DNA from: Lachnospiraceae bacterium
GTDB taxonomy: Bacteria; Bacillota; Clostridia; Lachnospirales; Lachnospiraceae
Assembly: GCA_017439675.1 (NCBI GenBank)
Contig: JAFSIQ010000047.1
Span: 1-36,997, forward strand
Direction: 5' to 3'
Length of the DNA stretch: 36,997 bases
The notes beneath the pieces are model-generated. The model saw only the letters and a list, made by a program, of their open reading frames with translations, did not search any database and was not told the DNA's origin. This document shows, in pieces, positions 1 to 4,631 of the stretch (positions are counted from its first letter, which is position 1; the number at the start of each line of letters is the position of its first letter). The position numbers were made by a program, and so were the translations under genes.

Positions 1-207
1 ACACAGAGCAAGCTTTGCTTGCGATGTGAGGCATGGCTCATATTTTATAGGCTGTTTCTGCATACGGCGAATGCCGCGACACAGAGCAAGCTTTGCTTGC
101 GATGTGAGGCATGGCTCATGTTTTATAGGCTGTTTCTGCATACGGCGAATGCCGCGACACAGAGCAAGCTTTGCTTGCGATGTGAGGCATGGCTCATGTT
201 TTATAGG
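1..207. repeat. 78-bp tandem repeat, about 2.65 copies, cut by the window edge
   Basis: Copies start at 1, 79 and 157, so the period is exactly 78 bp. Copies 1 and 2 differ at one place (A at 42, G at 120). The third copy matches through about 207 and then diverges. Each unit contains the hairpin GCAAGC-TTT-GCTTGC (8-22 in copy 1) and a second one, CGGC-GAAT-GCCG (65-76). The period is divisible by three, so all frames stay open across the units, but the translations have no recognisable domain. I read it as a non-coding hairpin array. The array runs off the left edge, so the copy number is a minimum. Confidence 0.9.
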
Positions 208-265
208 GTGTTCTATTTCTAGATTTCTACGAATCTACGTATAAATTCGGTTCGCACTGGTTAGG

Positions 266-506
266 ATTTAATTAAAGGATAGACAATTGCGAAACTCGGA
301 TTTATGCTGTAAAGGTTATGCAAATTTAACAAACCAACGCAGGCACGCTTTCGCTGCCTCAACGCGTAGCGGTACTAAATTCGAGAAAACCCTCTCATTA
401 AGTACCGACGGGTTTCGAAGCACCTGCTTATGGTGCTTGTTAAACTTGCACAACTTGTTAGCGATTTTTCGAGAGTTTCGCAATCAACTAATTTAATAAA
501 AGGATA
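266..506. repeat. 16-nt imperfect direct repeat flanking the folded element
   Basis: ATTTAATTAAAGGATA at 266-281 and ATTTAATAAAAGGATA at 491-506 match at 15 of 16 positions, 225 bp apart. They sit just outside the inverted-repeat element at 286-484. The right copy runs into the gpr ribosome binding site. The pair may be a duplication made when the element inserted, or chance similarity in AT-rich leader DNA. A 16-bp target duplication would be long for most transposons. Confidence 0.6.
286..484. other. 199-nt folded element: candidate structured RNA or miniature inverted-repeat element
   Basis: A perfect 12-bp closing stem pairs 286-297 (ATTGCGAAACTC) with 473-484. A long imperfect stem continues inward, 306-332 with 437-462, including TTTAACAA/TTGTTAAA (325-332/437-444). 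Inside are three hairpins: AGGCA/TGCCT (341-345/355-359), GGTACT...GAGA/TCTC...AGTACC (371-406), and AAGCACC/GGTGCTT (418-424/432-438). The 6-nt loop of the middle hairpin, AAACCC (387-392), is fully complementary to GGGTTT at 410-415, giving a possible H-type pseudoknot or an alternative helix. G-U pairs do not settle which strand would be transcribed: two mismatches become wobbles on each strand. It lies in the leader of gpr. I do not recognise the family. Confidence 0.65.
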
Positions 507-2749: not shown

Positions 2750-4564
2750 ATGGCACATTTAGACCAGAGCAAAATTCGTAATTTTAGCATTATTGCACAT
2801 ATCGATCACGGTAAGTCTACTTTGGCAGACCGTATTATAGAAAAGACAGGTTTGTTGACCGACCGCGAGATGCAGGCACAGGTTCTAGACAACATGGAAT
2901 TAGAAAGAGAACGCGGTATTACCATTAAGGCACAGGCGGTTCGAATTGTATATAGGGCAAAGAATGGTGAGGAGTACATTTTTAATTTGATTGATACTCC
3001 AGGACATGTGGACTTCAATTATGAGGTTTCTAGAAGCTTGGCAGCCTGTGAGGGTGCAATCTTAGTGGTGGATGCTGCACAGGGAATTGAGGCACAGACT
3101 CTTGCAAATGTATATCTTGCCATTGACAATGATTTAGAGGTGATGCCGGTTATCAATAAGATTGATTTGCCAAGTGCAGAGCCAGAGCGTGTGGCGAATG
3201 AGATAGAGGATATTATCGGAATTGAGGCTATGGATGCCCCACGGATTTCTGCCAAGACCGGTCTTAATATTGAAGATGTACTTGAGCAGATTGTGGAGAA
3301 GATTCCTGCACCGAGTGGTAATCCAGATGCATCTCTTAAGGCGCTTATTTTTGACAGTAAGTACGATTCCTACAAGGGTGTTATCATTTTCTGTCGTCTG
3401 TTTGATGGTTCTGTCAGAAAAGGAACCCAGATTAAGATGATGGCAACGGGAGCAACAGTAGAGGTTGTTGAGGTTGGTATCTTTGGAGCAGGTCAGTTTA
3501 TTCCGCAGGAGGAGCTTTCTGCCGGAATGGTTGGGTATATTACAGCTAGTCTTAAAGACGTAAAAGAAACTCAGGTGGGTGATACAGTGACGGATGCTAA
3601 CAATCCTTGTGATGAAGCATTGCCAGGATATAAGAGGGCCAATCCGATGGTATACTGTGGTGTGTATCCTGCGGATGGAGCGAAATATCCGGATTTGCGG
3701 GATGCGTTGGAGAAGTTACAGCTCAATGATGCGGCACTAAGCTACGAGCCAGAGACCTCCATTGCGTTAGGCTTTGGTTATCGCTGTGGTTTCTTGGGAT
3801 TGTTACATCTTGAGATTATTCAGGAACGTTTGGAACGAGAATACAACTTAGATTTGGTTACTACCGCACCGGGTGTTATCTACCGTGTATATAAGACGGA
3901 TGGAGAGATGATTGAGCTTACCAATCCATCGAATCTGCCGGACCCATCCATGATTGATTATATGGAAGAACCATTTGTTGCGGCAGAGATTATGGTGACA
4001 AAGGATTATGTGGGGGCGATTATGCAGCTTTGTCAGGAGAGACGTGGTGTGTATAAGAGCATGGAATATATGGAAGAGACGAGAGCTTTGTTAAAGTATG
4101 ACTTGCCGCTTAACGAAATCATTTATGATTTCTTTGATGCGTTAAAGTCCCGTTCTCGTGGTTATGCTTCCTTTGATTACGAGATGAATGGATATGTCCG
4201 TTCCAATCTTGTGAAGCTTGACATTTTGATTAACAAAGAAGAGGTGGATGCCTTGTCCTTTATCGTGCATGCAGATACTGCATACGAGCGTGGACGCAAG
4301 ATGTGTGAGAAGCTAAAGGCAGAGATTCCAAGGCACTTATTTGAGATACCAATTCAGGCGGCAATCGGAAGCAAAATTATCGCAAGAGAGACGGTAAAGG
4401 CACTTCGTAAAGATGTGCTTGCTAAGTGTTATGGTGGCGATATTACCCGTAAGAAAAAGCTTTTGGAAAAGCAGAAAGAGGGTAAGAAACGTATGCGCCA
4501 GATTGGTAATGTGGAGATTCCACAAAAGGCATTTATGAGTGTATTGAAGTTGGATGAGGAATAG
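2750..4564 (+). CDS. lepA: Elongation factor 4 (LepA), ribosomal back-translocation GTPase
   Basis: LepA is a translational GTPase related to EF-G that acts on the ribosome, in back-translocation and initiation or assembly. The protein has 604 residues, a normal length. The GTPase motifs are AHIDHGKST (G1, about residues 16-24), RGITIKAQ (G2), DTPGHVDF (G3), NKIDLP (G4) and a SAKTG (G5). The C-terminal LepA domain ends with the basic stretch [19 protein letters not shown], diagnostic of the family. The start follows AGGATAGGAGATAAGG. lepA downstream of gpr-spoIIP and upstream of hemW is a conserved arrangement in Clostridia. Confidence 0.98.
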
Positions 4565-4631
4565 AAGGTAAGCAGAACTATGTGTTTGTTTTGCTTTTGA
4601 CAGATGACAAGACAAAGAGAGTGACGAAGAT

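Follow-up and report, generated by a model that had tools for sequence, protein, structure and literature searches.

We describe a short hairpin element in the leader of the germination protease gene gpr of a Lachnospiraceae bacterium which, close to certainly, moves as a MITE-like non-autonomous transposon. As a whole, our reading, to which we give a probability of about 0.86, is that this MITE-like transposon is mobilised in trans by an IS1182-like transposase, inserts upstream of Shine-Dalgarno sequences and carries a conserved core that is probably an RNA. The element lies near the start of a 36,997-nucleotide contig, which as a whole is referred to below as the window.

A preliminary description had delimited a folded element of 199 nt (window 286-484) with a perfect 12-bp closing stem, a long inner stem and nested hairpins. 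This outline holds: positions 286-297 and 473-484 form perfect 12-bp arms, and the fold of the span, in which the long inner stem and the nested hairpins are seen, beats shuffled sequences on both strands (-74.1 kcal/mol, z -7.18 on the plus strand; -79.4 kcal/mol, z -7.66 on the minus strand; 0/200 shuffles equal in either case). The ends of the mobile element are wider than that span (281-490, ~210 bp), and the final T of the left target-site duplication is equally readable as base 1 of the terminus [Table 1]. With the leading T, the left terminus matches one end, TAGGTAATTGCGAAACTC, of a transposase-bearing IS (L363; see below) at 16/18 positions. Upstream of the element, at the contig start, window positions 1-234 consist of three 78-bp tandem repeats, of which the second is 99% and the third 73% identical to the first.

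Table 1 Features of the element and its surroundings (window coordinates).
Feature	Position	Strand	Remarks
Left target-site duplication ATTTAATTAAAGGAT	266-280		15 nt, one mismatch to 491-505
Complete mobile element, MITE-like	281-490	minus (core reading strand)	Termini, duplications, copies
Left terminal inverted repeat (T)AGACAATTGCGAAACTC	281-297	plus	Arms and termini
Outer stem, left arm	298-327		Mean pairwise identity 0.54; folds
Conserved three-way-junction core (model R1)	328-441	minus	Covariation, matches in genus and family
Short GNRA-loop hairpin	347-354	minus	GAAA in window copy, loop at 349-352
Outer stem, right arm	442-472		Mean pairwise identity 0.60
Right terminal inverted repeat GAGTTTCGCAATCAACTA	473-490	minus	Arms and termini
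Right target-site duplication ATTTAATAAAAGGAT	491-505		Pairs with 266-280
gpr Shine-Dalgarno AAGGGAG	510-516	plus	4 nt past the duplication; read from sequence
gpr, germination protease, downstream host gene	524-1429	plus	PF03418 Peptidase_A25, 254 bits

A DNA search of the 2-Mb draft genome to which the window belongs (70% complete) retrieved 14 strong copies, including that of the window, as well as several fragments, and a covariance model of the core returned 16 matches at E < 1e-5 in the same genome. Most copies are ~190-210 bp long and dispersed, and have no coding capacity. Among eight own-genome copies, mean pairwise identity amounts to 0.79 in the core vs 0.54-0.60 in the arms and ~0.3 outside the element; one copy, L008, was omitted from alignment A1 owing to its insertion. 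Five other copies of the same genome (L010-L014) carry the same core within quite different outer arms; thus, the core is more conserved than its carrier. In another genome of the genus, G015, 20 nearly identical copies with sharp ends and unrelated flanks were found, 15 of which are bounded by exact direct repeats of 10-18 nt, two by shorter ones and three by none. Short, non-coding, present in many dispersed copies, flanked by target-site duplications and sharing its termini with an autonomous transposon, the element has the properties of a MITE, and the suggestion of a MITE with secondary structure made in the preliminary description is borne out. Of the two signs of mobility proposed there, multiple copies were present, whereas a clean empty orthologous site was sought at the gpr and L264 copies and only the downstream gene aligned.

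Insertion sites were analysed in 92 terminus-defined copies (an earlier scoring list of 49 held the copies above a score threshold). Target duplications of 9-15 bp, most commonly 11 bp, flank 47 of them, compared to 1/1095 in a control pairing left and right flanks from different copies; the remaining 45 lack a duplication by that test. Of 84 Shine-Dalgarno-like hexamers in these copies, 59 begin at a distance of 14-21 nt from the edge (peak 16-19), where a uniform distribution predicts 10.3, a simple null that ignores where leaders tolerate insertions, the observed spread being narrow (about five bases). A hexamer at this distance was found on exactly one side of 54 copies, on both sides of none and on neither side of 38; duplication and hexamer occur together in 35/92 copies, and 26/92 show neither sign. 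Read in the sense of the gene, the hexamer starts 4-6 nt past the duplication in 32 of the 43 copies scored; of the 11 exceptions, several are, by eye, early matches to an A+G run ahead of the true hexamer. The core may point either way, with 17 sense and 17 antisense orientations relative to the gene among the 34 copies classified. A promoter -10 box as the target had been our first reading of the duplications and was abandoned when the spacing from the Shine-Dalgarno turned out to be narrowly distributed.

Matches to DDE_Tnp_1 were obtained in three of eight genus genomes tested. One such locus (L350/L362) has the termini on both sides and is an IS of 1770 bp, hereafter the L350 IS; its ends are TAGGCGTTTGCGAAACGCC and TAGGTATTTGCGAAACTC, its target duplication is 12 bp long, and AAAGGAG follows that duplication on the side of the gene. 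A second IS, of 1753 bp (L363, genome G002), ends in TAGGCGTTTGCGAAACGCC and TAGGTAATTGCGAAACTC, has AAAGGAG past a duplication of 12 bp in which one position differs, and encodes a protein 86% identical to that of the L350 IS. The two copies give a second end pattern of TAGGTA[A/T]TTGCGAAACTC and have AAGGAG 4-6 nt past their duplications; furthermore, both G009 and G015 have hairpin copies with an exact match to the 17-bp IS end AGGTAATTGCGAAACTC of G002. The IS open reading frame (491 aa) exceeds the cut-off for DUF772 and is sub-threshold for DDE_Tnp_1; since its score against the IS1182 model (NCBIfam NF033551) is 70.8 bits, below the curated cut-off of 270, the transposase is called IS1182-like only. 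A search by sequence for a solved structural relative of this transposase yielded none. Neither IS contains a core according to the covariance model, and the core is thus not needed for end recognition. A transposase match was present in 9/24 genus genomes, full-length in two (G008 and G002). At E 1e-10 there was none in the window genome, G009, G015 or G019, despite about 50 core matches in each of the latter three; in such genomes, the driver may have been lost, missed by the draft assembly, or be a different one. Judging from the sequences, an IS1182-like transposase is the likely and well-supported driver of the hairpins.

Other candidates were considered for this part and rejected. An all-against-all comparison of 643 open reading frames from at most 132 loci revealed, as recurrent neighbours of the core, families that looked host-like by eye and no transposase. 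A function of the core as leader of an IS1182 transposase gene was discarded because only one locus (L376) adjoins a core, and no second case emerged from two transposase queries and the collected loci. In L376, a 123-residue N-terminal transposase fragment (positions 4255-4626) starts about 140 bp from the core; we take this truncated fragment to be IS1182-like from its general likeness, unscored.

In its pattern of substitution, the core resembles a structured RNA. In 13 own-genome copies, 14 of the 38 core pairs change on both sides, yielding 48 such cells vs 15.4 +/- 3.8 in shuffled alignments (0/500 shuffles) and 0-6 in controls with slid partners, and 98.2% of cells are paired vs 30-40% with slid partners; like all our core alignments, this one was fitted to the model and leans towards it, and the sequences are related. 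Further pair types, at 19, fall below the 23.6 of the shuffles in the same 13 copies, a trend opposite to that of the both-side changes. Among 230 distinct cores from the genus and the family, all four Watson-Crick types occur at many pairs. The compensatory changes that characterise structured RNAs thus exceed controls in the core, and the remark in the preliminary description that its nested hairpins go beyond the needs of a miniature transposon has proved sound, the core being kept with compensatory changes across genera and between other termini. DNA template-switch correction in a long palindrome can mimic covariation. Variation in architecture was also seen: L270 (4592-4855) and L282 (645-904) harbor an extra structured stretch within the main arm, and in L008 and L263 a nested domain replaces the GNRA hairpin, the insert being alike in both.

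With respect to distribution, the core model matched all 24 sampled genomes of the genus, that of the window included, with 1-87 matches each (uncurated counts, in which one copy can match on both strands), and none of 16 genomes from other families of the same order. Within the family, it matched 110/299 sampled genomes, corresponding to 109/298 genera. Phylum-wide, five of 398 genomes matched, namely the window genome, three of the same family and one, G693, from another family and class; the latter has eight diverged matches, and the four examined (L387-L390) have outer arms of their own. Records retrieved with a core pattern were mostly from Lachnospiraceae or unresolved Clostridia among the matches listed. 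Comparison with Rfam, a check proposed at the outset, gave no family at gathering score in the window, and a further Rfam search only three matches at E 5-10. No match to plasmids or phages was found with one copy each as query; carriage by phages or plasmids was rejected on this ground and because two pattern matches in viral contigs fail the covariance model.

The most serious alternative for the core is that it is structured DNA, a cruciform or single-strand hairpin that would aid transposition or arm repair without ever being a functional RNA, and this has a sizeable, if minority, chance of being right. Both strands fold about equally well, as such a structure would have it, and the core shows no strand preference relative to genes. 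In L071 and L081, moreover, the left and right arms have exchanged outer ends, a pattern that would fit a hairpin intermediate and suggests hairpin-templated copying. Wobble pairs cut both ways: over all pairs of the modelled strand, G.U is rare and hardly above A.C (175 vs 149 of 8348 cells), but stands at 174 vs 64 after post hoc exclusion of one junction pair (85 C.A cells). Further evidence against a DNA structure comes from the loop of the short hairpin, which conforms to GNRA in 130 of the 137 cores parsed (seven not GNRA as parsed, 40 of 177 distinct cores unparsed by the hairpin pattern) and has a purine as third base in 137/137, and from the IS, which has termini, duplications and target without a core. 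We infer that the core acts as an RNA, with about twice the likelihood of the DNA structure. The GNRA loop is read from the minus strand of the window, which is the antisense strand with respect to gpr.

The core was also found in larger, smaller and differently ended carriers. Giant hairpins (524-577 bp) that have the termini described above and are flanked by duplications occur in L263 (559-1134), L264 (6787-7363) and L281 (796-1319), a fourth hairpin of similar size being present in L265; their cores have diverged and score 23 to 53 bits. Internally deleted forms (L274 and L275) are flanked by duplications as well. Twenty copies have other ends, CAATGTCATT...AATGACATTG, and contain the core in 17 cases and duplications of 9-11 bp in 12. 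About 14 of these 20 adjoin a motif recognised by eye, TGAAY-WGTWAC, and five of the eight without duplication have it on both sides, inverted, as if inserted at the centre of a palindrome. Loci of this CAATGTCATT type include L153, L158, L180, L204, L207, L222, L166, L175, L176 and L189 (records CAJTEN), and several such copies lie inside GTTACTATTCACGGC-like palindromes, where the flanking repeats are inverted, not direct. Family-wide, 82 of 91 copies had no Shine-Dalgarno 8-24 nt from the hairpin end, a weak test given ends roughly estimated by arm pairing; nine of 100 matches had been left out for short flanks. Preference for a Shine-Dalgarno thus seems tied to termini of the TTGCGAAAC type, and what the several carriers have in common is the core. 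Its presence in copies that differ in termini and in target motif makes an independent role for the core probable, perhaps as an RNA. A more speculative extension, which we hold to be possible but somewhat doubtful, is that the core is an RNA module parasitising transposons of differing termini and target rules (AAGGAG; TGAAY-WGTWAC) and bringing its carriers an advantage, for example by offsetting the harm that a large hairpin would do in the leader of an mRNA.

Three further explanations of the element fared worse. Spread as an RNA-mediated retro-element, in which a reverse-transcribed hairpin RNA would leave variable target duplications, is improbable: the core is RNA-like and the scored duplications do range from 9 to 15 bp, but the inverted termini match those of a DDE transposon, and G009 and G019 lack an RVT_1 match for all their core matches (about 50 each). 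RVT_1 was rejected as driver because no terminus pair brackets it, the cores of L353 and L355 belonging to ~190-bp copies outside the reverse-transcriptase match.

Even less credible is a cis-regulatory RNA controlling gpr through a pseudoknot switch, as had been ventured from the position of the element in the gpr leader and from the complementarity of the hairpin loop AAACCC (387-392) to GGGTTT (410-415). This complementarity is exact (6/6) in the window copy, but among the 13 own-genome cores it is complete in that copy only, reaching 5/6 in two close sisters and 0-4/6 in the ten others; the pairing initially noted thus exists, but is not conserved, and the pseudoknot and the proposed switch, being unsupported by these copies, were rejected. 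The conserved strand, moreover, is antisense to gpr, and copies of the element also precede genes unrelated to it. gpr was found in 21/24 genus genomes, and a core lies within 336 nt upstream of it at only four of these 21 loci (the window, L297, L304 and L311), in differing positions; the other 17 have none within this distance, one of them (L306) with just 76 nt upstream available. These counts speak against the gpr-specific regulatory role originally surmised. At L312, a core lies some 780 nt upstream of gpr, and at L298 a CAATG-type remnant without core was seen by eye upstream of the gene. The element is not a gpr riboswitch.

Least probable of all is mobilisation by a Y1 (HUH) transposase as a repeat of the REPIN/RAYT type, a system likewise made of high-copy intergenic palindromic hairpins and one for which Y1_Tnp matches in six of eight genomes tested might speak, but Y1_Tnp is found neither in G019 (98% complete), where core copies abound (about 50 matches), nor in the window genome (70% complete), no terminus pair and no core occurs at any of 14 Y1 loci, and the element has target duplications, which, to our knowledge, are not expected of Y1 enzymes.

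Among known systems, the transposase is closest to the IS1182 family (e.g. IS1272 of staphylococci), its similarity being significant but sub-threshold (NF033551, 70.8 bits). According to the portions of PMC5678879 used here, this family includes palindrome-targeting members, and IS1272 replaces inverted repeats without target duplications; the present IS, in contrast, are flanked by ~12-bp duplications beside a Shine-Dalgarno. The RUP and BOX MITEs of Streptococcus pneumoniae resemble our element in being short and non-autonomous, with inverted termini, duplications and strong secondary structure, and in their likely effects on co-transcribed genes; as far as the excerpts of PMC3049150 go, they differ in being enriched downstream of genes, where ours lies at a fixed distance upstream of a Shine-Dalgarno, and no junction core spanning many genera such as the present one is described for them. 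The MRSC-65-2 motif, a mobile/repeat sequence candidate, shares dozens of copies per genome, covariation and a suspected transposase link; compared by description only, from part of PMC11109978, it consists of one long stem bearing a UYCCGG repeat and comes from diverse phyla, whereas the present core forms a three-way junction and, in the genomes sampled here, is almost restricted to a single family. Neither the core nor the target rule is described in the parts of PMC11109978, PMC8040213, PMC3049150 and PMC5678879 drawn upon here, and a search of the open-licence literature found no report of a Shine-Dalgarno-adjacent target rule. ISfinder may already list an IS that has these ends.

Returning to the MITE-like transposon, the following mechanism may be proposed. 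An IS1182-like DDE transposase would recognise the ~18-bp termini of a non-autonomous DNA transposon and move it in trans. The transposon would insert just upstream of a Shine-Dalgarno in either orientation, with a duplication of some 10-15 bp, while the ribosome-binding site stays intact. Between the termini, the arms of the quasi-palindromic hairpin would drift yet stay complementary, while the apical three-way junction of ~114 nt would be strongly conserved. The latter, most likely an RNA read at gpr from the opposite strand, would serve the element rather than gpr specifically, whether through insertion tolerance, stability or transposition.

The core represents a multi-copy structured nucleic acid in 109/298 genera of the family that is absent from Rfam 15. 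A transposon recognising the neighbourhood of ribosome-binding sites would enter leaders without breaking genes, and such targeting would place like hairpins in many unrelated leaders of one genome. If true, the combination of an RNA-module parasite with a Shine-Dalgarno-seeking transposase would constitute a bacterial safe-haven system.
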